NCBI RefSeq assembly: GCF_964204645.1
Contig: NC_134030.1
Coordinates: forward strand, 8,864,278 to 8,928,277
Length of the DNA: 64,000 bases
Direction of reading: 5' to 3'
DNA from: Tubulanus polymorphus
Lineage: Eukaryota; Nemertea; Palaeonemertea; Tubulaniformes; Tubulanidae
Under the pieces are notes generated by a model. That model was not told where the DNA came from and did no database searches. It saw only the letters and a program-made list of their open reading frames with translations. Each line of letters begins with the position of its first letter. Position 1 is the first letter of the stretch. Shown piece by piece: positions 7,139 through 58,802 of the stretch. The position numbers and the translations under genes were made by a program.

Positions 7139-7321
<183 letters not shown>

Positions 7322-9917: not shown

Positions 9918-30631
<20,714 letters not shown>

Positions 30632-30742
30632 ATCTATATTAGGGGCTAGGCTACGTGTAGTACGTATATTCAATGTCAGTAATGTTCAAATAGAAAATCT
30701 TTATTCGTATGTAAGAAAATGTCGGGATCTATTGCAATCATT

Positions 30743-31052
30743 CAGGGGTGGATCAAGGGGCAGACTTCGACAGGAGCACAATGAAATGAAAAGGGCTGAA
30801 AAAGGGCAAATCAAGTATCCGCACAGCCAAAACTGGGGTCTTACATACTTTATAATTAGTGCATTTTGATACAATTTCTAGGCACTTGGGGGTCACTTGG
30901 GCTAGAATAGGCCTATATTAGCTAAATCTTATGCCGCAGACTGCTGTCTCATTAGTTGCCGCTGGAAAAAGTGCCCTGAAAAATATTGCCATTGTATTTT
31001 TAAAAAGGGTATAGGAAAATTGCTGCAGGAACACGTCTGGATCCACCCCCTG
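30743..31052. mobile_element. hAT-like MITE, third family copy
   Basis: CAGGGGTGGATCAAGG at the left and CTGGATCCACCCCCTG at the right are inverted. It is 310 bp without coding potential. It starts about 110 bp after the SIK stop codon, so it is probably transcribed in the 3'UTR. Confidence 0.65.
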
Positions 31053-31955
31053 TTATTTGTGTGTGTGTGAGAGTGGTTGTTTAATGGCAGTTGCTATGTT
31101 TTAACGTGTCAATTGTATATCACCAATTAATTGGGCTTTGATTATCGTCAAATCTCGGATGAATATGGCGCGATCTCACCCTCATCCATTTGCTTAATGA
31201 ACAGTCGTTTGGATGCATTTCACCGGTTAGAAAATTTGGACTGATGAAAAAATTTGTGATACACTTCATTAGAAATGGAAAGTCCTATTCCAGTAAGTAC
31301 AGGCAATTCCCAGCCTGTACTCAAATGGTTATTGACACAATCCGGATTTCCAAAGTTCATGATCGTTTTGATTATTCATCGATGATTCAACTTGGGTAAA
31401 TATGTAGGCCTATCTGTTCTAGGATTCGATAATTTTCCAGTGCAGTTGAATGAAATAAATTTGCATTTACCGGGTATGTCAGAAAACAAGTGAAATTAAT
31501 TTCAAGGACGTGAAATTTTGTTAAGTACTAATTCTAAATACGCTCGGATTCCAGTGTGTTTCCGAGGATGTTTTCATTGTCAAAATCTTAATAATAACAG
31601 CAGAATTTCCACCGAGAAATCTTGAAAAAATGTCATCGTGTTTTCGCCAAACCCCCTCCCCCTGGTTCAATCAAGGTTATAAATGATCTATTCGAAAAGT
31701 AAATGCCCCAGGCCTCACCAGATGAAATCAGTAATCGTCGGTGCCATTTGGAAAATCTATGCCCAATTTTACCTAATCGAAGCACATACAATCACATGAT
31801 TGATTTAAAGTCTCAAGCTAACAATGAAGAATACCCCCGGTTATAGTTTATTTTCAAATATTTGATACCTGGTAGGCGTCAAATGTTTATCCAGTTACTT
31901 TGGCCAGCTCATTTTAAGTCTGACCCTAAGATTGAATCAATTACCATATACCAAT

Positions 31956-32246
31956 CCATCCTCCCCGGCATACGAACCTGATGGCATTGCTAATCTCAGC
32001 CACGGCACGGACCCCTGCCACACTGCCACACTATGCGCAGGTTTGCCACAAGTAAACTTGCGGCACCAATCAGATTGTTTGTTGTGTAAATGGGAAAACC
32101 CGGGCTGAAATAAAACAGGATTTGCTAAAAATGACATCATCTATGCTGCGCATGTAGCTGCTCACTCAGTCTAGTGTGGCAGGGTTTTGTACCGTAGCCA
32201 GTCTCGATTCCATCAGGTTCGAATCCTTGCCGAGGGAGGATGATAC
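31956..32246. repeat. foldback or MITE with about 75-bp terminal inverted repeats
   Basis: The left end (CATCCTCC, CGAACCTGATGG, GCCACGG, CCCTGCCACAC) and right end (GTGTGGCAGGG, CCATCAGGTTCGAAT, GGGAGGATG) are inverted copies with scattered mismatches. The inner 135 bp has no ORF of note. Confidence 0.7.
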
Positions 32247-32804
32247 TAAGCCCGCGCCAAGCTTTTTTGAGAGGCTGTTCTATTTCAAGCAAAAGGGATT
32301 TTTTCACCATGAAAATGGGCATTTTCTTATTCAAAAAGGACAGCTCTCAGATATGTACCTGAATGAATCATTTGAGAATGGATTACTTTTCATTTCCCTC
32401 AAAAAAAAACCCAGAAAATTGTATCCAAATTCAAAAACAGTAATCCCCTCGGCACGGGCCTGTATAGTGGAACTCAAGAACTAAATGTCGGCTTTCTGTT
32501 AAACATATTATTAATATCATTTAGAAGCAAACAGCATTTATACATTACATGTACGGTTTAACCAAAAACAAGTCAAAGCAGGTGATAATGTATGAAATTT
32601 GCAGTTTAATATGCACTCAGATGTGAATACCATTGGTGTAATTATACAACGTTTATCTCATACATTATAGAGACGTGTCATTTATTTGTTTATACAATCA
32701 GTTGTTGACTCTTGTTTACAAGTATTCAAAGTTACTTTTACAACTACGTTAATCTTCAATGTCTTACATAAAAATGCGCGATAACAAAAAATACATCTGT
32801 TACA

Positions 32805-32805
<1 letters not shown>

Positions 32806-32844
<39 letters not shown>

Positions 32845-32856
32845 TATTATTATTAG
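32806..32856. repeat. (ATT)n microsatellite
   Basis: About 15 ATT trinucleotide units with one interruption. Confidence 0.95.
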
Positions 32857-33307
32857 AGAAATATATTGTATTTTTACAGATGCAAATTAGATTTGTATTT
32901 CGTCGAAGATAATGTATGTACGTTGATAATGCGTGTTTGACAAAGGATTTTAAACTTTGTCAGCTTTACGGCGGCGAGGTCGCGTATTGATTTTTGACTG
33001 CTTTTTGGTATGGTCAGTTCTACTATGCCTTTGTATATTTCAAGGGGTTATAAAGTATTCTTAATTCAATACCGATAGTTAATTAAAACCTCTACGGAGG
33101 CTGTTCCATGCTATGGTAATTTTCCGTACATATGTATGCGTGTATCTGGTCAAAGCTAGAAGTTTCAATAAGGGCCTATCGGGTATAATTGACTCATCTA
33201 TACTTAGTTCCAATATCTACAAAATAACTTGTACGCATGATCAGTGATAGCTATACTTCGGTATGATTACCCTCGATGTATAAGCTATGTTACAATCATC
33301 TCTCCCC

Positions 33308-33415
33308 GGACCCAGTTCCACAGTTGTAAGTTAAGATTTGACTCTGAGTTAACTGAAACTGAACTGAACTTAAACTCAGAGTTAACACTTAACTCACAAC
33401 TGTGGAACCGGATCC
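33308..33415. repeat. short foldback MITE, GGACCCAGTTCC family
   Basis: Arms of about 40 bp: GGACCCAGTTCCACAGTTGT then AGTTAAG and ACTCTGAGTT, answered by AACTCAGAGTTAA, CTTAACTCACAACTGTGG and AACCGGATCCC. A diverged copy lies at 57500-57605. Confidence 0.7.
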
Positions 33416-33436
33416 CGAAGAACTGTCATTCAGGAT

Positions 33437-33645
33437 CAGGGTCCCTACAGATCAGTCACTCCAGAATTCAAGGACTTTTCACGGGGAAAATTTCAAATTT
33501 TGACCTGAACATTTTCTGATTACCAATTTCTTAAAATTCTAAGAGTTTTCAAGGACTTTAGGGCATTTTGGTCAAATTCTAGGATATTCAAGGACCTTGA
33601 AAAAAATTTTTGGTTTCAAGAAATCAAGGAGTCATGGGGACCCTG
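33437..33645. mobile_element. short MITE, AGGGTCCC family
   Basis: It starts CAGGGTCCCTACAGATCAGT and ends ATGGGGACCCTG. It looks like an internally shortened form of the roughly 370-420 bp copies at 51686, 55840 and 58842 in the transporter introns. Confidence 0.65.
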
Positions 33646-35314
33646 AGGATGCTGAACGCCTCACATAGAGATGTGTTCAGTTAAACTCAGCCGATACAAG
33701 GCTTATCGGAAGAAATATCTTCACCTTTTGCCTGATTGTAATGTGTAAATATGTCGATTGAATGTAACCGTTCGTTAAATTGAAACGGAATTGCTGTATG
33801 TTGTGTAGACTTTTGTAAATATATTTATTCGGAGTACACTGATGTTAAACGTGGGTTGATTAATCATTGAATAATCTGCTTCATTTGCTGATATGAGAGC
33901 CAAATTTACGATTGTGTTCAACTGATTGTTGTGTATATAATGAATGCGATCTTGTGCGGACTGTACATTCTAATTGAAAAACACATGTGATGTTACCTCT
34001 GATTAATTTCATGCCCATCTCTCTACTAAACTGTTTATGGGTGGTTTTCACAATGTCCAGTTCCAAATTATGGGTCTTTATGGGTTCAAAACAGATTGTA
34101 AATAAGCCTTCTTAATCCTAATCTAATGGAATTCATTGGTTTCTTATATCTATGTACTTCTGGTCCTCAGTTGCAGATCAGAAATGATTTCGAACAGTAT
34201 TTTGTATAAATTCACTGACTTGATTAGTTTTCCAAGTACATCGTACCGGTACAAGGAGCCTGAGCTTGTCTATTCTGTGAGCTTGTCGATTCCGCATGCA
34301 TTGTTCATGTCATGTGTTAATTTTCAGTTAGTACTTAGTAAACACTCGTACAGTAAACAACCTAATCCCCTCTACAAGTTGTATTTTATGTTAGAAATGA
34401 GGATTTGTATGTTTCATGTACAATACAGTCAGTTGATGTGCTAGGTGTTAACACCGACTTAATGGATATTTCTTAAGAAATAAAATCGAAATATAGATCA
34501 TTATTAGAGTTTACTTGATGCTTTTCATGGTTTGTAGTAGGTCTACATAGCTACATTTTGGAGAAAAAGTGTTAGTTAAGGCCCTGATTTGCCCTTACAT
34601 GATCAGTAAGTGATGTCTGAAGGGAAATGGGTGGTTCTAAGGGTGATGAGTGATGTTTCTTCATCAACCTGCACTACCAATCAAGATATATCCTTATGGT
34701 ATGTTCCTTTGGACTCATTTACACTACCAATCCTGGAACATCAAACAGCCATAAACCAGTTATCAGGCAGCGCACCGCCACCAGAGCTACCGTTGTCTGG
34801 ATTTCCCCTAACTATATTGCAGAACCAGAGTACGCGCAACAGAAGCCTGTCATATTAAAACTACACAAAATGAAAGAAACATCGAATGAAAGTGACCAAG
34901 CTTGTTTTAAGTTATCTTATATTGCTGTATTAACATAATCACAATGAATGCTACAACATAAACAATACATCACACATATCTCAGACTTTGAAAAAGTCAG
35001 CTAAGTCTATATCATAATAAGTTTAAAAACCCACTATTATACAGAATTTAAGATTTAAATAAAATTCTGTATATTCTGCTGTTCTCTTTGTCTGAGTGTG
35101 GTTATTCTTCCACAGTCTATCATTATGTTTTAATTTAATGAACAAGCATTGACCCTGCAGTCAAATTGAACCCTAAAATATGTCATAGTGTCTTGTTCCA
35201 AAGGGAAAGATACCTGTGATCAGTCTACAGTTAAACTATAAGAGAAATTGATGGTTGACATTCATTATTTATAACAGCGGTGAATTGATGTGATTACTCA
35301 TTAGTTTTAAGCTA

Positions 35315-35462
35315 TAATGAAAGATGGCAGCACCTATCAAACGGTGTAGATGCATCATAGCAGTACTGGTGTGCCTGTTATTCAACACAGGGGCGGAATT
35401 TTTGAAAATCCTTAAATTATCCCCAGCGCTGGTGGGTATTGATTAATCACTGGTAGGGTTAA
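35315..35462. repeat. partial MITE, copy of the 21458 element
   Basis: It shares GATGGCAGCACCTATCAAAC, GGTGTAGA-GCAT-ATAG, GTTATTCAACACA and the terminal CACTG--AGGGTTAA with 21568-21748. The left terminal repeat is not found. Confidence 0.6.
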
Positions 35463-35536
35463 ACCCTAATGTGTCCCGTTCCAAAGGAAAGATACTACAC
35501 GCGATCAGTTCACAACAGTCACGATAAAAGAGGGAT

Positions 35537-37171
35537 TCATGTTTGACACTCATTATTACATATGACTCGCCGAGCTTCGATCGGATCGATGCGTAACATG
35601 TTATAGTAAAGTTTCGCACGCTCCTCCAGATCGACAGTATTAGAATCGCTCAAGCACATCTCGAACAGCTTACCCAACGCGTCCTGGCACTGCGCCGGCT
35701 GCGCGAAAAACAACTTCATCGCCGAATGCAACACGCTGAATTTCACTTTCGCGACTTCGTTGTCGAGAGAATCGTCGTCGCCGTTGACGAAGTCGTCGAT
35801 GACGTACGCGCCGTCGTCGAACTCGCCGCCATGTTCGCCGAGCAGATACAAGAGGGCGCTTTTACCGCCGCCGTCTTCGACGTAACTCGCGCACTCGCGA
35901 AGTCGACTGACGAGTCGTTTGACCAGCGCCGCGTCGGCTAACGGAATCGACTTCAATACGCAAAGAACGTTCGACGACAAACTACTCGATCGCAACTCGA
36001 GCATTTTCAGCAGTTTTTCGACGCAGACGTCGTAACAGTCTTTGTTTTGACGCGCGACCGCGATTTTACCCAAAGCGGCGACTGCGGCCACCGAAACATC
36101 GACGTTTATATCCAACGAATACATCGACAATTCTTCAACGATCTCGGTGACGTTTTCGTCCGTCGCGATCTTCGGGAGCATGGCGATTTTTTTCGTTTTT
36201 ACGTACGTCGGTTCGTGAGCTTTGCAATAGAAGCTCGTCGCTTCTAAATCGACGGCGCGCGGCGAACCCACGTCTCCGCTATCGCTCGTCGTAGATGGCG
36301 CCAAAACCATACGATCGATATATTCCAGAACGGCGTAAACGAGTTCGCGATTATCCGACCCTAAAAAAGAAACCAACGCGCGGTGCGAACGTTTGAATAT
36401 GTCCACTTGTAAATGCGGCATTTCAGCGACTAATCGCAAGAATAGTTCGACCGTTGCCCTGACAACCGACGCGTTGAAGTGATTCAGATACTTATCGAGA
36501 ATATTCAGAATGTCGAAAACTTCGTTTTCATCTTTCGTCTCGTAACGCTTCAAGACGTCGAACACGCGTATGACGCCCCACTCGGAGAACGACGAAACGC
36601 GATTCAACAACGAATACGCTATATTCTTATTGACGACGATGCCACCTTCCGGTCGTAATAACTCGTCGAGCGTGTGCAAGCAGTTGACGACGACGATCGG
36701 ATCGGTGTCGCGTATCATCGCGTAGAGCTCATCGACAATGCCGCACTCGACGAGGAAACTCGCGTTCGACCTGGCGACGGAAACACAGTTCGAAACGGCG
36801 ATGCGGCGCACGTACGCGCTGCGATCTTTCAGACCGGCGACGACCGCGTGGCTGACGTAATCGCTGAAACTGTCGTCGCGCAATGCGCAGATCGTACGCA
36901 GCGCTAAACCGCGCACGGTCGGATTCGGGTCGGAGCAGTCTTTCACCAGTGTGTTTATCGCCAGCAGTAACGTCTGCGGCGCGACGCCACCATACGACGA
37001 CACGAACAGACATGCAAACTTTTTCACGCGCAGATCGTTGTGCGCGATTAACTTGACGATCGTCGGGAACAACGCTTCGATTTCGTTGTGGGAAAGTTTC
37101 GGCGACAGCGCCTGCTTCAAGAGACCTTCGAGTTCCTGAGCGCTGACATTCACGTCGCCTTTCGACTGCAT
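35537..37171 (-). CDS. AP4B1: AP-4 complex subunit beta-1, adaptin core only
   Basis: A single uninterrupted 544-aa ORF. AP-4 is a heterotetrameric, clathrin-independent coat at the trans-Golgi network; its beta subunit is an alpha-solenoid of HEAT-like repeats. Diagnostic segments are LLAINTLVKDCSDPNPTVRG (residues about 69-88), the Arg-Ala-Leu-like repeat SAYVRRIAVSNC, DTDPIVVVNCLHTLDELLRP, EGGIVVNKNIAYSLLNR and FDILNILDKYL, in the same order as the vertebrate protein. The later LLYLLGEHG and AQCQDALGKLF also match. Human AP4B1 is about 739 aa; this one stops right after the trunk (RRVIC) and lacks the hinge and ear. The N-terminus is also slightly shorter. A weak donor-like GTAATA near the end leaves open a spliced C-terminus. 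Its ATG is 48 bp after the ANAPC13 stop. Confidence 0.9.
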   Translation of the reverse strand: MQSKGDVNVSAQELEGLLKQALSPKLSHNEIEALFPTIVKLIAHNDLRVKKFACLFVSSYGGVAPQTLLLAINTLVKDCSDPNPTVRGLALRTICALRDDSFSDYVSHAVVAGLKDRSAYVRRIAVSNCVSVARSNASFLVECGIVDELYAMIRDTDPIVVVNCLHTLDELLRPEGGIVVNKNIAYSLLNRVSSFSEWGVIRVFDVLKRYETKDENEVFDILNILDKYLNHFNASVVRATVELFLRLVAEMPHLQVDIFKRSHRALVSFLGSDNRELVYAVLEYIDRMVLAPSTTSDSGDVGSPRAVDLEATSFYCKAHEPTYVKTKKIAMLPKIATDENVTEIVEELSMYSLDINVDVSVAAVAALGKIAVARQNKDCYDVCVEKLLKMLELRSSSLSSNVLCVLKSIPLADAALVKRLVSRLRECASYVEDGGGKSALLYLLGEHGGEFDDGAYVIDDFVNGDDDSLDNEVAKVKFSVLHSAMKLFFAQPAQCQDALGKLFEMCLSDSNTVDLEERAKLYYNMLRIDPIEARRVICNNECQT

Positions 37172-37219
37172 GTTTGAGAGTTATTTAGCGATTTAGCGGA
37201 TGGTCCCCAAGAACGGCAG

Positions 37220-37447
37220 TTAGTTGTTGCTCGACGGAACTGGGTTTTCGTGAAGGTTCGACAATGCGACGTCCGTCCATTTCTGCTCTTGTTCGAACAA
37301 TGTTTCGTTGCTATTGCCGTTGTCAGGCTCCAATTCGGGAAGTTCCATCTGAGGCACGGCGATATCTTCCATCGGTAGTTTGTCCGATTGCCACTGGGGG
37401 TCGCACAAGTCCATCAAATGACCGTCTCGCATCACTTCACTATCCAT
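37220..37447 (-). CDS. ANAPC13: anaphase-promoting complex subunit 13
   Basis: A 75-aa ORF beginning MDSEVMRDGHLMDLCD and containing DKLPMEDIAVP, ELPELEPDNG and QKWTDVALSNLHEN. This is nearly colinear with vertebrate APC13 (74 aa). APC13 is a small subunit that stabilises the TPR arm of the APC/C ubiquitin ligase, which drives mitotic exit. The start has a strong context (A at -3, G at +4). An acceptor (TTTTTCAG) lies just upstream, with the exon starting at 37518, so the 5'UTR is probably spliced. A donor CTAG|GTAAGA on the same strand ends at 38443 and could close that 5' exon. The gene sits immediately before AP4B1 on the same strand. Confidence 0.95.
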   Translation of the reverse strand: MDSEVMRDGHLMDLCDPQWQSDKLPMEDIAVPQMELPELEPDNGNSNETLFEQEQKWTDVALSNLHENPVPSSNN

Positions 37448-39341
37448 TTTCTATTCCTATTTCGATCAATTTGATGAGATGTGAAGTGCTGTTTCTCAAC
37501 TGCTGTTGTCTACTGAACCTGAAAAAGAAATGTTTACAAATTCACGCGGGGAAGCCTAACCACCATGGCGCGGGACAAGAGCTCTGTTTGAAATAACCGA
37601 ATTGAATGCGTCATTGGGGCAATTGACATTGTTGTGACAGACATCAGCAGACTTGATGCTTTGCTTGTGGATAGATTTAAGCATTACGGAGTGTATAGTA
37701 TTGGTAGATGGAGCGGAGGGCGCGTACACATAGGATCATGAGTAAATCTATTTTTTGGAATAAGGATGACCGAGAATACGTATCACTCAGTTATTCGGTA
37801 TTCCCCCTATTATCAACTATAATTGCAAATTGGATTTACCAAGACAAAATGACTTTTGTGCCAAAAAAAATGTCAAAGCGTATACATTACACTATTACTA
37901 TATTACACAGATAGTAAATCTGTGATACGTGAAAAGCCATACATGATGAAGATAAAGGGCCTGAATAAGCCCCCTCACCTGAATATTTCTGCCAAAATAA
38001 TAATCTAGTTAAAAACGAATTTCATCGATCACAACTGGATGATTGCGCATACAGTTTCGCTGGAGCCACCCTTTCTCGAGCTATATCAATTCAATTCAAT
38101 AAACTCTATATAGCGCGGAATACGGAGCGGACATCGGACCTAAACGCAATATTGTTGACTTGTTCCAAATTTTGTACGATATTTCATTTTGCATAAGACT
38201 CTGAGTCGAGTAATTTTGAAACGATCATTCAAATAATGACTCCAAGCATAAACGTATTGTTGCTGAAAAGATGTGAACTTTTATTCAACGGGTCAAGGGC
38301 CAGTTTTTGCCACAGCGCAACGGCACACAACTTTGGAAGTTCGGCGTTATTCTTAAAAAATGATATTCCCAAAAATACAACCAGGAACTGTGCGCACAAA
38401 CGCCCTTTCAAGTGAAACCTAAAATTCATTTCACGATCTTACCTAGTTCTCATTCTGGTTTTAACTGTCACAGCGGTACTGACCGAGTCTGTTTTTCAAG
38501 CGGCTACGTTATCATTTTCATTATACTTATCTCTACGGAAAATGGTTTTAATTGCTAGTATTAAGTTTGAAAATCAAGTCATAGGCCTATATACAATATG
38601 ACTCCCGAAAACTCGAAGATTGATTGGGTTTGAAGGATTTTCTGACCAGTTTTTCAACAGACAGTGCATTTTGATCACACGTTCGATGTTGCGTCCGGGA
38701 GAGAAAATATTCAGATGGAAGAAGAAACAAATCTAGTATACTAAAAATCGAGTATGACGACCATTTAAACCAGTAATTAACTATAACTTCAAATGTGCAG
38801 TTGTTTATGTATAGTAATTAATGGGAAAACCTGTACTTCATTCAATAAAGTTGACGAGTTTTGTCCAAAGCATTTACTTTCTAAGTAGTTTATTTCCAAT
38901 TAAAAATATTGCAGATAAAGTACTGGTACTCAACACACGTGAAGTGTGGACGAGCACCCTTTGAAAGTGCGCTGATTAAATCCTTTCCAATTGAAAATAT
39001 ATCTGGATGTCTTTCATACATGTGAGTATAGCCTCTACGAAATGACGTTGATTATCGAATTGTATGCAGTAGCAGTGGAGGGGAGTCCCAATTTACGATA
39101 ACGGGTTGGAAAAGAACAAAAATTAATTTCATCTGCTGTGCTGACATCAATTAATCTTGCGAAGGACATGAGTGCGGCGATGCAGGCATCGAAAATGTTA
39201 TGTATAGAATTGTAAGAATGACTCGTAGTTTGGACAGTGCAAAACCCCGAATGATTTTGGTCAATGTGCCACAACATTACAATGAGTCTATCACTACAAC
39301 CGCTCAAAACAAATATCCGACTTGACAACTGTGATGCCATC
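37448..39341. other. upstream region of ANAPC13, gene-free
   Basis: It contains the ANAPC13 leader (37448-37518) and probably its promoter and a non-coding exon ending at 38443 on the - strand. I see no other supported gene. ORFs are under 70 codons and lack family resemblance. Confidence 0.4.
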
Positions 39342-39413
39342 GGTTTCGTAGTGTAGTGGTGATCACGTCCGCTTCACACGCGGAAGGTCGCGGGTTCGAG
39401 CCCCGCCGAAACC
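39342..39413 (+). tRNA. tRNA-Val (anticodon CAC)
   Basis: A 72-base cloverleaf without intron. The acceptor stem GGTTTCG/CGAAACC pairs perfectly, the anticodon stem is TCCGC/GCGGA, and the loop TTCACAC gives anticodon CAC. The T arm is GCGGG-TTCGAGC-CCCGC. The A and B boxes are intact (TAGTGTAGTGG, GGTTCGAGCCC). TTTTT follows at 39425. The sequence is very like vertebrate tRNA-Val-CAC. Confidence 0.96.
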
Positions 39414-40093
39414 TTTCACTCAACTTTTTGAACCCCAATTTTTCGACCATATCTCAAATTCTATTTTTCCATCCAGCAGATAGTGTGATGGTACGTTTCT
39501 ATGATTCAGCATTATTATTTGTCCAATTAAGTGGAACCGATTTGTTGTTTTTGATTGGTTCTAAAAAATGTCTTGATCACTCATTCAGATGTTATGCCAT
39601 ACAAACGGGTTTTTCTGCCTATAGCGCATCATTAATATACAAACCTTTGGGAGTTATAAACAGATATAAAAAATTGTTCTCCAATGAAATTCATCGGATT
39701 ATCTTGACTTCTACAATGTAATAGGCAATTATTCACTGAAATAATCAAAATTTATGTACCGTGATGTTTCGACGTTCTCTCCGGACATCTTCCTCAGAAG
39801 AACTGAGACAAAGATGGCATTAGGTGACATCCGAAGAACGAACTAAATTGTGAACGCTGGCTGAATGGTTCTGAGGTCTCAACTATAGTCCCTCGACATA
39901 GCATATGGCCTGGGACCTCTAAAAACTGGAAGCTGGTCTAACCAAAGTTTTACTGTAATAAGCGTGACATAATTGTAGTTTTTGACGCTTTCTGCAGTAT
40001 TGTATACAGCAATTATGTGCGATGGACCTCTTCATTTTCCACAAGTTACATTCTTCATTCTTCATTTCCCGTTGCATTAGAAGTTGTTTAAAA

Positions 40094-40130
40094 GGTTTCG
40101 GTGGGGCTCGCCACTACACTATGCAAAACC
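40094..40130 (-). pseudogene. tRNA-Val pseudogene lacking its centre
   Basis: On the + strand, GGTTTCGGTGGGGCTCG (the 3' acceptor and T-arm part) is joined directly to CCACTACACTATGCAAAACC (the D arm and 5' part). About 35 bases containing the anticodon arm are missing, and the acceptor has substitutions. The DNA beyond its 5' end (ACAAGTCGGAT) resembles the flank of the two intact genes. Confidence 0.8.
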
Positions 40131-40575
40131 GTCAAATTTGAAGCTGACAAGTCGGATGTTTATTACGAGTGTGGTAGTGGTGTAGAAAACTAGCCTGTAC
40201 TACTACCTGGACTACATGTACGTGCCATTTCTTTCAATGTTTTTGGCATTCTCGTTACATTTATAAAACATTTAAAATTCACCTTACTGACTACCTAATT
40301 TACTGGAACAACCTGGACGATACGCGCCGTATCAACACCGTCAGCCGAAACCTTCCCGTGAACAAGCGAGGCTTCATTACTAACCCCTCCGTAAACGCGA
40401 CCCTCGCTCGTACCATATCTAGATCCAGAGATCCGTGTTTATTTAGGCTACATGATAAGATTTTACAATTAAGAAACACTATTCGTATCACAATAATGAA
40501 ATAGGTTTTAAAGTAATTGCTACGTGAAAAGCCAAATGTTGAAGAATGCATTATCAAATACGGATCACTGGTCCG

Positions 40576-40791
40576 TATTTCTAATTCTGAAAGTCCCTCG
40601 CAGCATATGGAACTACTAGATCTGGAACTACTGATCTTAAAATGGAAAGTAAAAAGTTGCTCAAAAGGTTTCGGCGGGGCTCGTATTTCTAATTCTGAAA
40701 GTCCCTCGCAGCATATGGAACTACTAGATCTGGAACTACTGATCTTAAAATGGAAAGTAAAAAGTTGCTCAAAAGGTTTCGGCGGGGCTCG
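40576..40791. repeat. 108-bp tandem duplication, two copies
   Basis: Copies 40576-40683 and 40684-40791 are essentially identical. Each ends with the 3' 17 bases of tRNA-Val (GGTTTCGGCGGGGCTCG, - strand sense). The first is therefore a tRNA fragment and the second continues into the complete gene. The identity suggests a recent event. A 25-bp hairpin (AAATACGGA-loop-TCCGTATTT) lies at the left edge. Confidence 0.9.
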
Positions 40792-40846
40792 AACCCGCGA
40801 CCTTCCGCGTGTGAAGCGGACGTGATCACCACTACACTACGAAACC
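40775..40846 (-). tRNA. tRNA-Val (anticodon CAC), second copy
   Basis: Identical over all 72 bases to the + strand gene at 39342-39413. It is followed by TTTT directly after the acceptor stem on its own strand, a good RNA polymerase III terminator. About 190 bp of its 5' flank is recognisably homologous to the other gene's 5' flank, so the pair arose by an inverted duplication. Confidence 0.96.
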
Positions 40847-41230
40847 GATGGCATCAAACTTGTCCAGTCGGATCTTTGTTTGAGCAGTGGACGTAGTGGA
40901 AGACTCAAAATGTGTAGCGTCGTGGCACATTAACCAAAATCATTCGGATTTTTGTGTGCACTATCCTGAACTACAAGCAATTCCTTTCAATTTTATGACA
41001 TTTATTATGCCTGCACCACCGCGCTATGTCCTTCACACAGATACAGTAGCGAGGGTATCCAAGTTAACGATATAGGGTCGGGAGAACAAAAATGAATTTC
41101 ATATCATCACGTTTTATTCAAAATCTATACAGTGAACTGTTGTACAAATGCTGAGGAAGTCTGGAAATACATTTAATAGAAGATTGCGTATAAACGGAAT
41201 CTAGAATAGCACGGTTCAGTTCTTTGTAAA

Positions 41231-42893
41231 TCATTTCTTGTCATCTTCGATGATTCTCAAAAGCTGTTTTTCGACCTGCCCAACGAATGCCGGGAAGGCG
41301 CTATCGCTGAGGCACAATCTGATGTAAGAATTCAGCTGAGCCGTACTCGGTGCACTTTTCTGCTGACTGTAGGCGAGAGGCAAGTGATAGGGGGTACCTC
41401 GGTTTGAGACTCGTTTTGGTGTTGCTATGCACCTGGCCAAATTAGGAATCGTTACAACGCCTTCCATCCGAGTACTTTCTTCTTCGCCCTAAGTGAAAAT
41501 AAAAGAAACGTGAACCGTCGTGTAATAAACTCGGCGAGAACACGAGAAGCGCTCTTTTAGCGGGAAATTCGCCGGACTAAATTGAGAGTTCGCCGAGGAA
41601 TCGCCCCTAGTCCGTCCGTTGGCCCGGATGAAGAATGCTCCCGTCAGCTACGAGCAACATCGCCCACGCGCGCTCCTTCTCAAGGGTGGGCAAACAGAAA
41701 GGGCTGTATTCACCCATTTCCTGAGAGGGGCACTGTTTAGAAAATTTTAGACTATTTCACATTTTTCATATAATAGTGGACTCCTCTTTCTTTGACCTCG
41801 GATCTGCCCCTGACGTGTCCGTGGTCGTATCCACATTTTCATTGAATGTATACATGTATATACACCTGTACCTGAATTGGAACATCGCCTTGACCGACCT
41901 GGTGACAGTCAGGAGATATATCCTTTATCGTCAAATACCCAGTCAAATGTTGACAGAGGATTTTGCAGTACTGCGCGCCGCTTTTCACTTCAGACGCTGC
42001 CAACATGATACGAAATTTCCGAGTTTCTTCCTAGATAAAGGTTACCAAAATGCCAAGAATGCCATAGATAACTTCTTCAGTTCAGCAAAGCCTAGAAATC
42101 AAACTTACGTTTATTTTATAAGCGAACAATATGCTATCTCCTTTACAAACCGCTCTCCACTTATCGACGCGGTTTATCAAACTGTGGTTCTCCTTTTTCG
42201 AAAACAAAATATTACACATAATTTGTCATCTGAGATTAAGTTTCAGTCTAACGACATAAAAGGCTAAATAATTAGTTGTTTGTATATAAAACCTGAAAAC
42301 TGTACACGCGTATCACATCCAGTCGTTTCCAGGGCCGTACCTAGGCCTAGCATTTGATTTTTGGGGGAGCTAGGCACCCGAAAATGGGAACAATAATATA
42401 TGCAAAATGGGTACTATCCAAAATGTCTGGGGAGGGAAACTGCCCACTTTCCCCGCTAAATAGGTCCACCGGGCCCAGATTTTTTAGGGGGGGGGTAGGG
42501 ACAGACTTACGAGTATCTCTCTTCCGTGGTGAATCAGTAAACTGCCACTCCTCAACAGCGATAGAGACAAAGGTTTAGCGTTACTTGCATCCAATATCTG
42601 GCAAAAATTAAATACGGTTTTTGGAAATGATTGACTCTAGATTTGCCATGATGTACACCCGGTTCCTCGATGACTTGATTGAAAAGTTTCTTTACCTTCC
42701 AATCACCGTCTTTTTTCGCGATGTCACCGGCACCACCACTGGCACCAGCCCCTCCAACTGCTCCTGAACACCCGACTCCTCTGGAACTCTCCCCAGAACC
42801 ACTCCCATCGCCAGTTACTATCGCTGTTCGTAAAAAGCGCGCGTATTTGCTTAATTTCCATTGGCCTTCAACTTTCAATAGGGATTCGGCCAT
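41231..42893 (-). CDS. two-exon 188-aa protein of unknown family
   Basis: Exon 1 is 42585-42893 (103 codons, donor CAA|GTAACG). Exon 2 is 41231-41488 (acceptor CACTTAG, 85 codons then TGA). They join in phase 0. An AATAAA on the - strand at 41113-41118 lies about 115 bp past the stop. The N-terminus MAESLLKVEGQWKLSKYARF is followed by a Gly/Ser/Ala-rich low-complexity stretch (about residues 29-57) and then a basic-aromatic segment (NHFQKPYLIFARYWMQ). The exon 2 part ends in a helical, charged tail (FVGQVEKQLLRIIEDDKK). There is no signal peptide or membrane segment. It looks like a small conserved nuclear or cytosolic protein, but I cannot name it. Confidence 0.75.
41489..42584 (-). other. 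intron of the 188-aa gene
   Basis: It includes a 3' end of a CAGGGG-type repeat (GGATCTGCCCCTG near 41803) and a G-run near 42486. A 163-codon open frame on the + strand (41776-42267) begins inside the repeat and shows no family resemblance, so I did not annotate it as a gene. Confidence 0.6.
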
Positions 42894-44700
42894 CTTCTCC
42901 AGTTTGAATTCACCGCGCCCATGCGCGCGCGCGCTCTAGCGTAACGCCTTTGAATTTTTTTGGCGGTAACTAATAGTAGACTGGTCGCCAGTCTATGAGT
43001 ACATATTGTTTGTTTGAGCAATTGCCGCTGTAGTTTGTAGTACTTCTATATCGACCGTATCGCCCAAAAAGGCGCTTCGTAATTCTTGGAGTGACGTTCA
43101 ATCGTTGGTAACCCGAATCTCGTTCAAATCACACCTGGAAATCACAAGGCCTGGCACAACGCAACTAATTTGAGTCATCGCCGCATGGCCCGAGGGGTGG
43201 ACACGTAAATTCTTGATCTTTAAAATTATTTCAGTCACGATCTCGATTTTTGCCGTAATTTGATTCGACTACTTTCGACAGAATTCAAGAATCTGTAGAA
43301 GTGTGTTATAAATGAAATTGATCAATAGTTTATATAGATTCATAGAATTATCGGTAGCCACACTCTGACTCTGGAGAAAAGAAGTTTAATACCCGTTATA
43401 GTTTTCAACTTATCTGGAATTCTTTTTTTTCTTCTCTTTATTATCAAAAATTGAATACTCGGTGTTGAAATCCGACCGTTCTCTTTCCATGAATAATTTC
43501 CGCATTAAAAGAACTGCACCACGTGTTTTTATTTTTCCGCTCAAAGAAGCTTACTGTTCAAAGAAAGTAATGTTATCAGATGCCAAGGCCTCGTTACCAA
43601 AGCTTCTTATGCGGTGCCAGGCTTGCTTATGCAACAGATCGTTATCGAAATGCTCTAGTTCTTGTCACGTACGAATCTGTGTCGCAGATATAAAAAAAAC
43701 GACAAAATGTCCTGGTTTGTGGACTATAATTCGAGTAACTGTTATGTGAATATCCATCGCTCGGCTACCACTTCACCGGGATAAATAAAGACCCTAGATA
43801 TAAAACTGGTAATTCCTGGAATCTAGATCTGCCGGTTTACTGTAAAATCAATAGGCCATTCAACCAACCCGAAGTTAACTGCAGGACCAGGGTAGCATAG
43901 CGATTGAACTGCAACGGAGAAATATGATTCAATGACAACCTTTAGAAGTTCAAATTTTTCTAGCACCCAATCCAGGTCTGAAATAGAATGTAGCACCTTC
44001 AGAGCTCCCTAAGTAATTCCAGGCCCTGGACAGTTCTTGGAGGATCCAGGGACTATCATCGTGAAAGCGAGGGTCGATGGTAAACCCGTTGCGAGCTGCC
44101 CCCTTCGTATTACGTTGCAGTACTCCGCTAAAGAAATCTCCAAATGTATGATTCTCTACATCATTGAATTCCGAAAGCCTCCATATTTCGCACATCTACT
44201 GTGGACATCTGCCGGATCTCTACAAGATTCCCGTTCAGGGTGGCCACTTTTCGCGCCGTATTTACAAATTCCGAGTTGATTTTTCCATGTGATTAGGGAG
44301 TGAGTCAGAGAAATTTTTAGGTTTAAAATGTTACACAGCGTTTCATTTTCATTGAATCACGAACTGATAAAGCAGCAAGTGGGTCCAAATTCCCTGGGTT
44401 TTCCGTTCTTTTTTGGTTAAATTTGTCAAATGCCCCGATTTGTTTCGAGATTTTTCCGATTCCCTAAATTTTTCCAGGTCAGTGGCCGCCCTCCCGTTTG
44501 ACTACCTCCAGTCTAATGGATCGGGACTTCGCTTCCTAAGTGCATTTTTGACCTACCGGTACCCTTAAAGTGTGGTAGTTTTCCACCACGCGAAAACTCA
44601 TACAATTGATTTACCCGACCATGAAATATGAACTAATGCAAAACGATCAAACAACGCATATCTTTGGAGTTTTTCATGGAAATATGTTTATTTTTTATCA
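42894..44700. other. intergenic, upstream of the 188-aa gene
   Basis: A GCGCGCGC stretch at about 42925-42940, right before the 188-aa gene, suggests its promoter. A CAGGGTGGCCAC MITE occupies 44236-44494. No other gene is visible. Confidence 0.45.
44236..44494. mobile_element. MITE, CAGGGTGGCCAC family
   Basis: The left end CAGGGTGGCCAC and right end GTGGCCGCCCTC are inverted. The 259-bp interior is AT-rich with CCCTGGG/TTCCCTAAA words, like 27894-28135. Confidence 0.65.
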
Positions 44701-48037: not shown

Positions 48038-48342
<305 letters not shown>

Positions 48343-51414: not shown

Positions 51415-54400
51415 CTACACGCTCGTGATCATCGAATCGATCTGACACGAGTCGGTCTCGTCGCCGTGATAGTATGTCCGATTGCCGAGGCCTTTCTGGC
51501 GGTTCTCCCACGCGTTCAGCCGACGCAGCGGCAAGCACATCAGCCCACTCATCGATATCATACCGCCGGCGAGGTAAAACGTAATATCATATGAGCCGGT
51601 AACATCTTTGAACGCGCCTGCAAGAAAAATTCACAATCAGTACGGTATATTAAAATACGACATACATTGAACATGGTAACCTACTGAGGGTCCCAGGTCT
51701 TAACAGATCAGCCATTCCTAGATACAAGGTGTTTTCAAGGAGTCTTATAAAAGGAAATTTCAAATATCGAGGAAGCACCTGCTTTCATATTCCAATTACT
51801 GTAGACTCCTAAATCGGTACGGTTTATCTCACTACACTATTTTTTCAGTGATTTTTGTAAGCCAATTTTATCCTGTACACTACATAAACCTGGTTTCTAA
51901 CTAACTGCCTAATAAGGTAAAAACAAATCCCAATTGTACCAATTTAGGGGTAAATTACTTTGTTCTACGAACTAGATGAAAAGATATAATTGCCTTTTTC
52001 TCAATGTGAAGGAGTTCAAGGCATTTTGCTCAAATTAAGAGCACCTTTACAAGCATTTTTCATTTGGAAGGAGTTTTTAACGAATCAGGGATTGCTAGGG
52101 ACCCTGTAACATAAGATTACAAACAGCCATGTGTGTTCAACAAGTATTAACGTTTCATCGCTGCTTAGGCACGGGATATCATTGCTACCGAAAGCTGCAG
52201 ACTTATTCGACCTTCTAGCACTGAAAATCTGGAGCACGGGGAAAACATTGACCTTTCATTAATTCATCACGTATGTATATCTTACCAGCGAGTGGAGTGC
52301 CGACAATCGTAGCGATTCCTTGGAAAAGAATCAAAATGCCAAATGCGTTCGTCAACTTTTCCAGTCCCATCAACTCAACCACGAGAATAGACCTCAACGA
52401 TACAAACGCGGCTGAAAAATAAATTAAGACACATTTATTGTTCAAGCAGCTTGTCCGGCTGTAATATAGCAGTTATAGGGGCCATCAAAGTGTGCAGCAG
52501 CATTGGGCGACTTTTCTAGCACATTTTGTGGAATATCTAACATGTTTGATAATTTTCATCGCAGTGCTAAGGCGTACTCGGCGGTAGGGGAACTCTGCGC
52601 ACTTAACGCTGCTTTTGTCATCAATGCGATACACAATCATTCAAAAATGATTATTAGCAGCGAGAATAATTCAGGAAAACAAGATCATTGATTTATTACG
52701 TTGATTATTATCATGAGTACCGGTATCCCTTTCTGCATGATATGGGATTACCAGAACTACTAAAATCATGCTTTCCCTCGCAAGAACCTCTATTTGTATT
52801 TTATTTCTCGCAATGGAGATGCAATAGGCAGGAACAGAAGAATTCCATCATATTCAAATAAGATAATTTGATTAGGCCAAGAATAGCCACTTTGAAAATG
52901 CTGCAGATATGTACATGTAGTAACTATGGTTATATGATGCATACACACTTGCCACAGCTCCCCTTTGTTGAGCGCATTTTTCGCCAGGTGTGCGGGGGCT
53001 CTACATTCTGTGCTATACATGCAAAATTTGCGCAATATTCGCTCCGTGCAGGCTAATGAACGGACATACGCTCAATCATGTACATTCGTAGGTGGCATAA
53101 CCATGATGATATTCCTATGTCACGACCACCAATTATGAATTTGGAAATCATCGCACCTGGGTCTAAGTTTTCCTAGGTGTGAGCTGATTTTAACCAACTG
53201 GTTCCTAAACGACGACACCAGGGCCACGGTCAAATTGTGCAGGACCCAGAAGGGAGCACAAGTGCACGTATATGCTACTGTCACAATTCTCTTACATGCC
53301 CTTTCTGACAATACAATAGCATATTCTTTTCCAATGTACTTTTTCCACATACAACTAATAATAGAGCAGCAGTACGCGGCACAAGATTCGAAATCGCATA
53401 AAAATGCACTGAATTTCTAAATATCCAAACCCCTGTTTTCGACTGATGGTCGCAACGTGTGGAAAAATTGCCCCTTTTTAACTGTATACCTCAATTTTTT
53501 GTCAGTCTGCCCCTGGACCCGCTTCGATAGTGTACTTACCAATGCACAGTCCAAAACCGGCAACGTAAAGCATCAGGTGCACGAACGTCGAACAGAACGG
53601 ACACAAAGCCGTCAGTATTCCGGCGATGATCAACGCAAAACTGTTGATGATCAAACAGTCGGCCCACGGCCGGTCGGAGATGAACCCGGTCATCACGCGG
53701 CCGATGATGTTCATGAAGCCGAGCGCCGAAATGAGATAGTACGCCAAATCGGGGTCGACCTCCAATTCCAGCGCGTTGTCGACGATGAACGTGAACGGTA
53801 CGAAAAAACCTGCAAAGTCGAGAAAAAGAACGCGTTATCGGTATTTCATTTCGTGGACACCGTTCGAAATCGTTAAATTATAACAAAACTGCTTGCAATA
53901 AGAGACGATTTAGAACAAGAAAGCTAAACTTGAAAGTCTTTTGACGCCCTGAGAAATAACATTTATAAATAGGAAAAATATACTCATAATCAGGAACAGT
54001 TGGCAGCTTTAAAAAAATATTTCTTTGATTTTGCTTTTATGAGACCAGAGAACCTTCGACCAAGATGCTCTGTTGCCACCAGGGTTTGAACCCATAAAAC
54101 CAGGATTGACAAGACCAGTGACAGCCACTCGGCCACTGCACCTCTCTTGTTGGCAGCTCTGATGACTGCAAAGGTGCATACGCTGTGGAATATCGCTATT
54201 TATTGTAATACACTCATTCATAATCGGGCGTATTCATAAATTTGCCAGTTAAATTCAACCGTTGCGATTTGGCGAAAAATATGTTCGAAGTGCACAAAGC
54301 ACCTTTTTTAACGCCCTGTGATAACTTCAATAATTCAGTCTATGACAGCAATTCCAGTTAGGCAACTAATAATCATTTTCACTCTATTTAACTTTAATTG

Positions 54401-57400
54401 GGTTTGTATCGCGTGCATGATGATTTCGATCTGCATTTAAATACAATATGCAGTGTCACGTTATAAGGACTTAAGGAAAATGTGTTAATGATTGAATATG
54501 AAAATGTCAAATGTACGTACTAAAATGGAACTAATCCAATACCAGTTAAAATTTCAAAAGTGTAGTTAGTAGTAATATGTTATGAACATCGGGCATATTT
54601 CATGGGCGGATTTAGAGGGTGGTCTCGGGGGTCTGGACCCTGCCTTCCCATTGAGGTTGCCCTTTTCCTCAAGACAAATATCGTTTAAACCTGAAATTGG
54701 GTTTTCACAAGATCGAGAGAGGAAAAGTTAGCTAACTAAGATAGGAGAAGACGGATGTTTGGTATCTTGCCAAACAAATGTCAGGATTCTGATCTGTACC
54801 CTGGATTGGTGGTACACACAAACACACACACAGGGTGATGATATAGACAGGAAAGAACTTGATACTGAGAAGAGCATTATATTAATTACCCAGGGTCGGT
54901 TAAGGTTATCGCTATCAATAGCTAGCGAATACAGGTTACTAGGCCATGCTATTCAAACAAATGTACATGGTTTTATATATAATGCCATGTAAGCCCTATA
55001 GGCTACTAGATCAACCAAGCCGACAGTTCAATTCATATTTCATCTAAAGCATGGGTCAAGCGTTGGTCATTATCAAGGGGTCAGATGTTTAAATCAACTA
55101 TGAAATTCTATCCCGCTAGAATTTCAAGAATTTCCAGGGATAAACGAATGGCTTCTGAGAAGAAGCCACATTTAGAGTGACATTTAAGCGATCAAATACA
55201 GTCATCTTCCCTCCATTTAGCTATACTTATATTTGCAGCAACAATGCAACTGGGGCTCGATATTGATGAATAGGTAGGCCCTAGTCTATTATTCTTCACA
55301 ACTTCATTTGCTTAACATGCCCGAAGTAAAATCGCTATATACCTATATAGGAAGTTAACGGCACGCATTCGCAAACCAGAAGTATAACATTATTTCATCA
55401 AATGCGGCCATGCGATATAACAACAACAACGTCGAGAGCTCCGGAATCTATTCGAATCTATTAAAGTAAAAAATTTCCGCGGTTGTTTTTATCGATCGAG
55501 GCACTTGTTGTGATCTAACAACGCGTCGTTGGGGAAGGGTTTAAACCAGATAACACCAGTCGATGTCTAGTACACCGCACGCGCATATATAAATATATAT
55601 ATACACATTCGACATATGTTTCCAAATATGTAACAATATGAATTATAGTTTCCCTCTAGGCCTATAGCCGCATAACGTCAATACAGTGCCACGCAGGGGC
55701 TTACTTACGAACAATAATGGACATAAACTGAAGTCAAACAGGCGGCTATTGTTCGGTTGTAATGCCTTTGTTTAGAATCGCTCATCCGCTCAATCTATGC
55801 TCTAGTCGATATTCCCACATATAACCCTAGATGAAGGCCCAGGGTGCCTACAGATCGGTCATTTCTGTCTAAAGGGGAAAATTCTCAAATTTCATGGAAT
55901 TGTCGTCTGCATCACTACAATACTTCGGGTACTGTTAATCTCGATAAACCGGTACTTCAGTGGTTTCGTAAGCAATTATTATCCCACTAAATTTTTGTAT
56001 CAAATTCAGTAACCACCTAGCGGGGTGAAGAAAAAATCCTGGTCCCAACTGTTCTGATAAAGGTTTTGTTTTCTGTACACGAGAAGATTTTCAATTGCCT
56101 ATTTAGCCTATTTAGCAAAGGAGAGTTTTAAAGGAGTATTGGACATTTCACTCAAAAAAAGTTTGAAGCACATTTAAAAGTGATCCCAGTTCGGGAGTAA
56201 AGAGTTTTCAACTAGGAATCAAGGATTCACACGGACCTGGGAAGCGCGGGTACTACTCACCTAACATGCTGAACACACTCGACAAACAGAAAACAACAAA
56301 AGTCGGACTGCGCAACAAATGGAAGTCGAGCATTTCCTTAATGACGTCCATCATCGCTTTCAAAGACGGGCAATATTTATTGAACATCGAGTCGGTGTAA
56401 TACTGGTTTTCCGGTATGGAAGTCACCGACACGACGTACTCCTTGACGTCGGGCGTTGACACGTACTGCGGCACGCGCATCATGCTACCGCTGTATAGAA
56501 TATCCTTGCGATACATCGGGCGCGCCATGTCCTTGCTGATCTGCTCGACGATCATGTCCTTCTCCTGTTCGAGACGCTGCTGCTCGGCGTACGGGTCGAG
56601 CTCGCCAGCGCTGCCACCCGCCGTGTGCAGACTCGACGCGCAGCTAGCCGGCAACGAGCCGCCGAACTTCAAACCGTTCGCGTTGACGAGCGGATTCGGA
56701 TCGGTTCCGCGACGCGTCAGGCAGACCTGCAATGACTGCGTATCACCGTCGGGACTTTGTTTTGGCACAGCGTAACCAGCCTGGCTGGTCGACGGATCGT
56801 TTGCGCCGTTCTTCGGCGACGGCCCGGCGCCTGGAGTTCGATTTCCGGACATGTTGTCCTGCGCGATACGGTTCATCATTTGATTACTTAAACTGATTCG
56901 CAAATGAGCCGGCAACTTGACTAATTCATTGTTTCGAGTGATCACGCACCCGTCGAGAGAACCTTGCGATATCGTTCGTTGACGCGCTTTCTCCTCGATT
57001 ATCTTTTGAAAGATCGACCCGCGGCGAATCTTGCTGCGCGGAATGTCGCCCTCTTTGCGATACTTCCCGCGGTTTTTCGGTTTTGTATATTCCAACGGCC
57101 GGAACAACGCGCCGCCGATGCAACAGTTCAACACGATTCCGGCCATGATCAGCAAACTGCCCTTCCAATCGTACTTTTCCAACAACGACTCGGCCAACGG
57201 CGCGAACACCAACGTTCCGATTCCTGAACCGCACACGGCTATTCCAGTTGCAAATGCGCGACGTCGCTCGAAGTAAAATCCAACGATGACGATCGACGGC
57301 AAATAAATCAAACCGAAACCGATTCCTACAATGGAAAATTCGATAGCGCCATTAGAAAATATTTGTTAAACAGGGCGATAACTTTCTGCCCATTCATAAA

Positions 57401-58777
57401 ATCCCTTGAGCGAATCACAAAAAATGTTACGATTCATTCATTCGTGTGTTGATTGATAAAGGAACACTTCGACAATAGCATCATCCAAATTCCGTTTTCC
57501 AGGACCCAGTTCCCCAGTTCTGAGTTAAGATATGACTTTGTGAAAATTAACTAATTTTAACTCACAGAGTTGACTCTAACTCACGATTGTGGATCCTGGT
57601 TCCTGGTAAAATTTGACTAATTCCCCAATTCCCTGAGAGGTTTCCAGGTCAGCAGCCACCCTGTTTTAGCGACATATCATTTCTTCAGGGATATATAATC
57701 ACGAGATGGGATCGTGAACGGTCGTACTCTCCCACGGGGAGTAATATTACATACCTCCAAATATTCCATACGCGACGATCAGAATCTCAATATTTGGAGC
57801 CATTATCGCCATGACGAAAGCGATCGTCGTAATGATCGCTCCCGCTATGGTAATGACTCGGCACCCGAATTTGTTTGCAAGGGCGCTGGCAAGTGGACCT
57901 GAAAAGCAAAAAAATAAATAACCAAAATGAACATCAATTTCATTAGCCTCAAAACCATTCATCTACATAATTTAAGCACCATGTAACCCTTCGTGTTCAA
58001 CCAACCATTTAAACTCAAAATTGGGGAATAGGATACAATTAAAATGTAAGTTGGATGATCCACTGATACCCGACTAGATAGAAGTGTCTTCTAAAACATG
58101 GATATCAGCTCCGGACTCAGGCACCCGGGACTGCCGTTTATTAAACTGGGGGGGGGGGGGGATTATCTACTTCCTTTTCAATTGGGTTAACCCACTGGTC
58201 AAAGTCAAAGTCGATACCTCTCTATGAGACCAGTCGCAAAGTTATTTCCTATGAGCAGCGGGGGCTTGGCATTCAACGATCTTCGCACGAAAATGCTGCA
58301 GAATTGAACGGCGATTTCGACGTATGTGGGACACAAAGGGTTAATCACATTGAGCGTATAACGCGTTTTTAAACTGAAATACAATTTCAGTTCCCGTGTC
58401 GGGTAAATTATGAATTTCCGAAGTTACCAGTTCCGTTATAAAGGATTATCATTCATCTTTTCATCACATTGCTGCGTTTCGTTTCGTAACTAGAATCCGT
58501 AGCACTGCTTACCCATAATGAGATAAATGCCGATCAAGAGGGAACCGACCCATGATGTCGCCGATGTCGTCGAATGGAAGTGCTCTTGAAAAGCGATGAA
58601 GAATATGCCGAAACTGAAGCACACGCCATCAACGATTATATTGCAGAACAACGACGCGATCACGACGACCCATCCCCAGCCGCCGTCCGGAGGTACCGGC
58701 GGCACGAGATCGTCGTCGGCGACGATCTCGTCGTCTTCCTCTTTCGGTTTGTCGATCAAATTCTTCGTTACACCCAT
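51415..58777 (-). CDS. monocarboxylate transporter-like SLC16 family protein
   Basis: Coding exons in order are 58513-58777, 57755-57898, 56261-57325, 53540-53809, 52286-52411 and 51415-51617 (TAG), giving 690 aa with all junctions in phase 1. SLC16 proteins are 12-helix major-facilitator transporters, many of them proton-coupled carriers of lactate, pyruvate or related solutes. The signature [16 protein letters not shown] opens TM1 (residues about 29-44), followed by [21 protein letters not shown] (TM2) and [15 protein letters not shown] with [14 protein letters not shown] (TM4-5). TM6 ends in FRPLEY. The TM6-TM7 loop, about 250 residues, is Ser/Pro/Gly-rich and includes [14 protein letters not shown], a segment seen in the MCT9/12/14 branch. 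TM7-12 carry [12 protein letters not shown] and [16 protein letters not shown]. Substrate cannot be predicted. The ATG at 58777 has A at -3 and G at +4. Confidence 0.94.
51618..52285 (-). other. SLC16 intron before last exon
   Basis: Mostly occupied by one AGGGTCCC MITE (51686-52106). Borders are GTAAGA and CTTGCAG on the - strand. Confidence 0.8.
51686..52106. mobile_element. MITE, AGGGTCCC family, long form
   Basis: It starts GAGGGTCCCAGGTC and ends TAGGGACCCT. It shares AGATCAGCCATTCC, GGAAGCACCTGC, AAATCGGTAC-GTTTATCTC and GGCATTTTGCTCAAATT with 58842-59216 and 55840-56240. Confidence 0.7.
52412..53539 (-). other. SLC16 intron between exons 5 and 6
   Basis: Just over 1.1 kb of AT-rich DNA with GT/AG borders (GTAAGT and TTTTTCAG). 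I see no repeat family or additional exon in it. Confidence 0.75.
54009..54148 (-). mobile_element. tRNA-derived SINE, 5'-truncated or deleted copy
   Basis: It shares the B-box GGGTTCAAACCC and the downstream body (CTTGGTCGAAGGTTCTCTGG) with 22983-23187. It has lost about 15 bp around the A-box-to-B-box spacer. The direct repeat GTTGGCAGCT flanks it at 53999-54008 and 54149-54158. The tail end is AT-rich. Confidence 0.85.
55840..56240. mobile_element. MITE, AGGGTCCC family, long form
   Basis: The left end AGGGTGCCTACAGATCGGTC and right end AATCAAGGATTCACACGGACC correspond to those of the other copies. The interior GTACTGTTAATCTCGATAAAC and CAGTGGTTTCGTAAG are shared with 58842-59216. More diverged at the ends. 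Confidence 0.6.
57500..57605. repeat. short foldback MITE, second GGACCCAGTTCC copy
   Basis: GGACCCAGTTCCCCAGTTCT and GAGTTAAGAT at the left answer AACTCACGATTGTGGATCC at the right. It parallels 33308-33415 base for base over much of its length. Immediately after it lies the 3' end of a CAGGGTGGCCAC element (57613-57662). Confidence 0.65.
58132..58235. repeat. G-run repeat related to the 2747 foldback
   Basis: A 14-base G-run (58148-58161) is followed by TTTTCAATTGGGTTAACCCA and GATACCTCTCTATGAGACC, matching the loop and right arm of 2747-2845. The left arm is not recognisable. Confidence 0.4.
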
Positions 58778-58794
58778 CGTTTTAAAATGAACAT
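58768..58794 (-). other. upstream ORF overlapping the transporter start
   Basis: In the first coding exon (5' border 58802), an ATG at 58794 opens an 8-codon frame that ends with TAA at 58768-58770, after the main ATG (58775-58777). It has G at -3 and T at +4, a fair context. It would compete with the main start if the exon border is right. Confidence 0.5.
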
Positions 58795-58802
58795 TTCTGG
58801 TT

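Follow-up and report, generated by a model that had tools for sequence, protein, structure and literature searches.

Does a single messenger RNA of the nemertean Tubulanus polymorphus encode both ANAPC13, a subunit of a cell-cycle ubiquitin ligase, and AP4B1, a subunit of a sorting adaptor? Few animal mRNAs encode two complete, conserved proteins, and a two-protein arrangement of this sort is uncommon in animals yet of an already known kind. The question is raised by two open reading frames (ORFs) on the minus strand of the analyzed 64,000-nucleotide stretch of contig NC_134030.1, hereafter termed the window. Both ORFs are found at the minus-strand coordinates given in a preliminary description of this DNA, and the identities proposed there are supported by Pfam and PDB matches. 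The first (37220..37447, minus strand) comprises 75 uninterrupted codons, and its 75-aa product matches Pfam Apc13p (E-value 6.9e-12) and APC subunit 13 in PDB (chain 4ui9_M, E-value 4.1e-25, 59% identity). The second (35537..37171, minus strand) comprises 544 uninterrupted codons (544 aa), which cover the trunk domain only. Its product matches Pfam Adaptin_N (profile search, E-value 3.3e-67), and its best PDB match is AP-4 beta-1 (9u9i_B, E-value 2.2e-107, 37% identity over the trunk); the next kind of PDB match is AP-1 beta (E-value 2.2e-63). Like AP-4 beta, the trunk is thus of the AP-4 type, far closer to AP-4 beta-1 than to the beta subunits of AP-1, AP-2 or AP-3. Chains 4ui9_M and 9u9i_B are presumably human. 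On the basis of these similarities we regard the identification of the two ORFs as ANAPC13 and AP4B1 as firm.

The ANAPC13 stop and the AP4B1 ATG are separated by 48 bp (37172..37219, minus strand). As claimed earlier, this gap contains neither AG nor ATG, and the list of ATGs in the region confirms that AP4B1 begins at the first ATG past the ANAPC13 stop. The lack of AG had also been used to exclude a splice acceptor from the gap; the observation itself holds, but the argument carries less weight than it was given, since 9.1% of the minus-strand 48-mers of the window lack AG by chance (4.1% lack both AG and ATG), and it does not extend to acceptors within the ANAPC13 ORF, which holds AG sites. 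The gap is therefore mildly unusual rather than striking and proves little alone. The two start codons lie 276 nt apart, which places the ORFs in the same frame, and three in-frame TAA codons stand between them (37222-37220, 37195-37193 and 37183-37181, minus strand), the last two inside the gap. A read-through fusion of ANAPC13 and AP4B1 is ruled out by these stops.

Splice sites were scored with approximate generic matrices drawn from general knowledge and ranked against the 7133 GT and 6413 AG sites. By this approximate measure, the donor at 37979 (CAG|GTGAGG) scores 11.9 bits, in the top 0.0% of the GT sites on both strands, and the acceptor at 37518 (TTTCTTTTTCAG|GTT) scores 8.7 bits, in the top 0.8% of the AG sites. 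This acceptor is the strongest within 37150-37700, precedes both ORFs and can be paired with the donor at 37979; together they delimit a predicted 5' UTR intron of 460 bp (37519..37978, minus strand), preceded by a predicted 5' UTR exon (37979..38085, minus strand), whose 5' end at 38085 is a guess, downstream of TATATA at 38112. If the guessed end is right, the leader contains two ATGs ahead of ANAPC13, so that scanning ribosomes would pass small upstream ORFs on their way. The approximate matrix reveals no good acceptor within the ANAPC13 ORF or the gap: the AG sites of the ORF at 37393, 37348, 37282 and 37239 score 3.8, 3.2, 2.0 and 0.9 bits (top 17-45%), the first value being the best of ORF and gap combined. 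The GTCGAG near the last ANAPC13 codons, put forward earlier as an acceptor, does not rank among the six best AG sites of this region. The splice scores thus suggest that a single exon would carry both ORFs.

The same sites bear on the main rival to a dicistronic mRNA, namely that AP4B1 possesses a 5' end of its own. This could come from an internal promoter, located in the intron or in the ANAPC13 exon, or from alternative splicing of the donor at 37979 to an acceptor in the last part of the ANAPC13 ORF; a monocistronic mRNA for AP4B1 would then lie nested within the ANAPC13 unit. Such a transcript would make reinitiation after 75 codons needless; the four AG sites of the ANAPC13 ORF are at hand for it, and an acceptor at 37239 would eliminate all ATGs that follow the ANAPC13 start and precede that of AP4B1. 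All four, however, score well below the acceptor at 37518, and the three best of them would retain an ATG upstream of AP4B1. We consider a separate 5' end possible, albeit doubtful.

Signals for 3' end formation point in the same direction as the splice scores. Neither AATAAA nor ATTAAA is present on the minus strand from 37219 down to 35140, a span that includes the whole AP4B1 ORF. The first such hexamers 3' of either ORF form an overlapping ATTAAA pair (35129..35139, minus strand), a candidate signal whose first member (35139) lies 398 nt beyond the AP4B1 stop. Both hexamers are missing from 21 of 1239 minus-strand segments of equal length and from 448 of 1000 codon-shuffled versions of the AP4B1 ORF, hence their absence can be explained by coding composition; even so, ANAPC13 is left without a canonical poly(A) signal. 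Variant hexamers occur inside the AP4B1 ORF (GATAAA at 36959, AATATA at 36625 and 36324, TATAAA at 36110). The dicistronic unit proposed in the preliminary description is helped by the absent canonical signal and by the sole strong acceptor lying upstream, and it remains the reading that we favor, with the mature mRNA itself being what we infer: one mRNA probably carries both ANAPC13 and AP4B1.

The spacing alone would also be compatible with a spliced-leader operon, in which the pre-mRNA is cut between the genes and a leader is trans-spliced onto AP4B1. Close same-strand spacing is shared with the spliced-leader operons of nematodes, tunicates and chaetognaths, as far as these are treated in the excerpted texts of PMC7986045 and PMC12460157: median intercistronic distances are given there as 57, 33 and 31 bp in three runs for Oikopleura and 1 bp for Ciona (PMC7986045), and candidate operons of chaetognaths were annotated as genes less than 250 bp apart (PMC12460157). 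Unlike in such operons, the gap between ANAPC13 and AP4B1 contains no acceptor, the approximate matrix finds only weak AG sites ahead of it, and the first gene has neither AATAAA nor ATTAAA. Moreover, some 3.2 kb separate the predicted 5' UTR exon from the nearest upstream same-strand gene piece identified, a REC114-like exon that matches the last part of the Pfam profile (41255-41392, minus strand, as calculated from the matching residues; E-value 1.4e-8), so that among the gene pieces identified no larger tight cluster is seen. An operon of this type is disfavored, and we judge it improbable.

Our best reading of the sequence, to which we give an even chance, is a single transcription unit that yields a dicistronic mRNA, with AP4B1 made by inefficient reinitiation. 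It is supported by the tandem arrangement of two conserved same-strand ORFs only 48 bp apart, and no Pfam domain was detected on the opposite strand in 30600-40600. A single promoter upstream of about 38.0 kb would give rise to a single transcript, from which the 460-nt 5' UTR intron would be spliced out; the terminal exon would then bear the ANAPC13 ORF first and the AP4B1 trunk ORF second, and cleavage and polyadenylation would take place downstream of AP4B1. ANAPC13, whose start context is strong (GAAA|ATGG), would be translated through scanning, and AP4B1, whose ATG has A at -3 (AAAC|ATGC), would be translated inefficiently, by ribosomes that take up scanning again past the ANAPC13 stop. 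Five ATGs lie between the two starts, four in the ANAPC13 frame and one out of frame (37280). The latter opens a 31-codon ORF (37185..37280, minus strand), which begins within ANAPC13, crosses its stop and ends 13 nt upstream of the AP4B1 ATG. It is a possible by-pass ORF for reinitiation: ribosomes that miss the ANAPC13 starts could translate it and restart 13 nt further on at AP4B1.

Reinitiation appears to be the simplest translation route. Internal ribosome entry, which had been named as an option, finds no positive evidence in the predicted folding of the junction RNA, as 176 of 200 shuffled sequences equal or surpass the junction in folding (z-score +1.1), which leaves no sign of special structure. 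A route through a termination-reinitiation motif was rejected: the core TGGGA is missing from the 159 nt upstream of the AP4B1 ATG, and only TGGGG is present, at 37209. The length of ANAPC13 counts against reinitiation, since its 75 codons exceed the limit of 55 codons that, according to the excerpted text of a review, was predicted from HIV tat mRNA (PMC4705651). The same text mentions an upstream ORF of 102 codons detected in SLC35A4, and a first protein of 124 aa in the bicistronic RPP14/HTD2 mRNA (PMC4705651).

Among the bicistronic animal mRNAs on record in that text are RPP14/HTD2 (HsHTD2), SNURF/SNRPN and CERS1/GDF1, for which it regards leaky scanning and/or reinitiation as likely, with the mechanism uninvestigated (PMC4705651). 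As in these cases, two proteins are encoded in tandem at the Tubulanus locus; unlike in them, as far as the excerpt describes them (PMC4705651), other genes are involved and a short upstream ORF (75 codons) precedes a much longer downstream ORF (544 codons). Literature searches found no report of an ANAPC13-AP4B1 pair (the terms are co-mentioned, each once, in work on mouse uterine epithelium), and nothing linking ANAPC13 with dicistronic mRNA or APC13 with operons, trans-splicing or adaptin. No relatives were found in viral and prokaryotic contig collections. If the dicistronic reading is true, the locus, with 75 codons in its first ORF, 544 in its second and 48 nt between them, would provide a natural test of reinitiation past the 55-codon limit predicted in the part of the review cited above (PMC4705651). 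The expression of a sorting adaptor would then be tied to that of a cell-cycle ligase subunit, and an AP-4 beta without the ear, if real, would inform which parts of AP-4 are dispensable.

The C-terminal hinge and ear of AP4B1 are known to bind tepsin. Here, unlike in AP-4 beta, no hinge or ear was detected, the ORF is uninterrupted and the N-terminal part is shorter (29 residues before the aligned block vs. 44 in the AP-4 beta-1 chain); the last residue in common with that chain is Cys538. The searches for the missing part, carried out without an invertebrate AP4B1 or other positive control, covered the minus strand of 26000-35700 against Pfam (E-value up to 1) and of 30640-35560 against PDB (E-value up to 10), neither of which gave an ear or hinge, and a tblastn of the human ear against the window, in which the best match was at 52150 on the plus strand (E-value 0.26). 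A diverged, split or distant ear exon may have escaped these searches. With respect to splicing towards an ear exon, the donor adjoining the end of homology (GTAATA at 35560) is weak (top 29% by the approximate matrix). The donor at 35674 is stronger (top 0.8%) but was rejected as a route to an ear exon: it precedes the end of the trunk homology, hence its use would lose conserved trunk.

The trunk homology stops (35537-35560) at the edge of an old direct repeat of 85 bp that flanks a dispersed repeat (35188-35557). One copy of the direct repeat, of about 85 bp (35471..35557, minus strand), includes the last six codons of AP4B1 (NNECQT) and the stop and is 74% identical to 35188-35269; between the two copies lies the dispersed repeat (35274..35462), which has a relative at 21524-21749.

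An alternative raised by these features is that the ORF in the 3' UTR of ANAPC13 represents an earless AP4B1 copy, retroposed or decaying and scarcely translated, and that a complete AP4B1 exists at another place in the genome. The missing ear, the shorter N-terminal part and the location of the AP4B1 tail within an old duplication beside a dispersed repeat would all agree with such an origin, as would the lack of introns in 1635 bp, whereas the matches to a SIK3-like kinase (18567-18881, 27575-27868 and 28409-30628, plus strand) and to a monocarboxylate-transporter-like (MCT-like) protein (53505-53834 and 56256-57365, minus strand) are split among separate ORFs. On the other hand, the 544-codon ORF is intact, trunk residues are conserved up to Cys538, and codon usage is native (its correlation with the SIK3-like 3' ORF is 0.90 and that with the MCT-like ORF is 0.78, each of the two ORFs being read from stop to stop); the intact ORF and the former correlation make AP4B1 look like a living gene. 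A target-site duplication was also rejected, as no exact repeat of 8-10 bp links 37172-37260 to 35100-35570, the longest being a 7-mer. We consider a decaying copy unlikely. Quite unlikely, too, is a scenario in which an AP-4 beta gene lost its introns and ear on being copied through RNA into the last ANAPC13 exon and would now serve as a second cistron, translated by reinitiation after the 75-codon ORF; the expression of a cell-cycle ligase subunit would thereby be linked to that of a sorting adaptor consisting of the trunk only.

Several further features of the window were recorded. Among the SIK3-like and MCT-like matches, UBA_SIK3 and the second MFS_1 piece fall under the Pfam cut-offs, and the ORFs 13988-14281, 17975-18298 and 58493-58825 resemble further SIK3-like or MCT-like exons, by eye only. 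The ORF 42555-42935 may be the first REC114-like exon, judging from resemblance only; it has no Pfam match, and its PDB matches are weak, the best being to a lectin (E-value 0.0021). An inverted repeat of about 290 bp (39154-39429 and 40759-41042, 81% identity) bears in its arms two opposed tRNA-Val(CAC) genes; two tRNAs are the only Rfam matches at gathering level in the window. The inverted repeat is accompanied by an exact 108-bp tandem duplication (40574-40789). Long (AT)n arrays of up to 298 bp occupy 7139-7318, 17019-17188, 18219-18292 and 48041-48338. The observed/expected ratio of CpG is 1.20 in the whole window and 2.05 in the AP4B1 ORF, and this lack of depletion suggests that there may be little CpG methylation in this animal.
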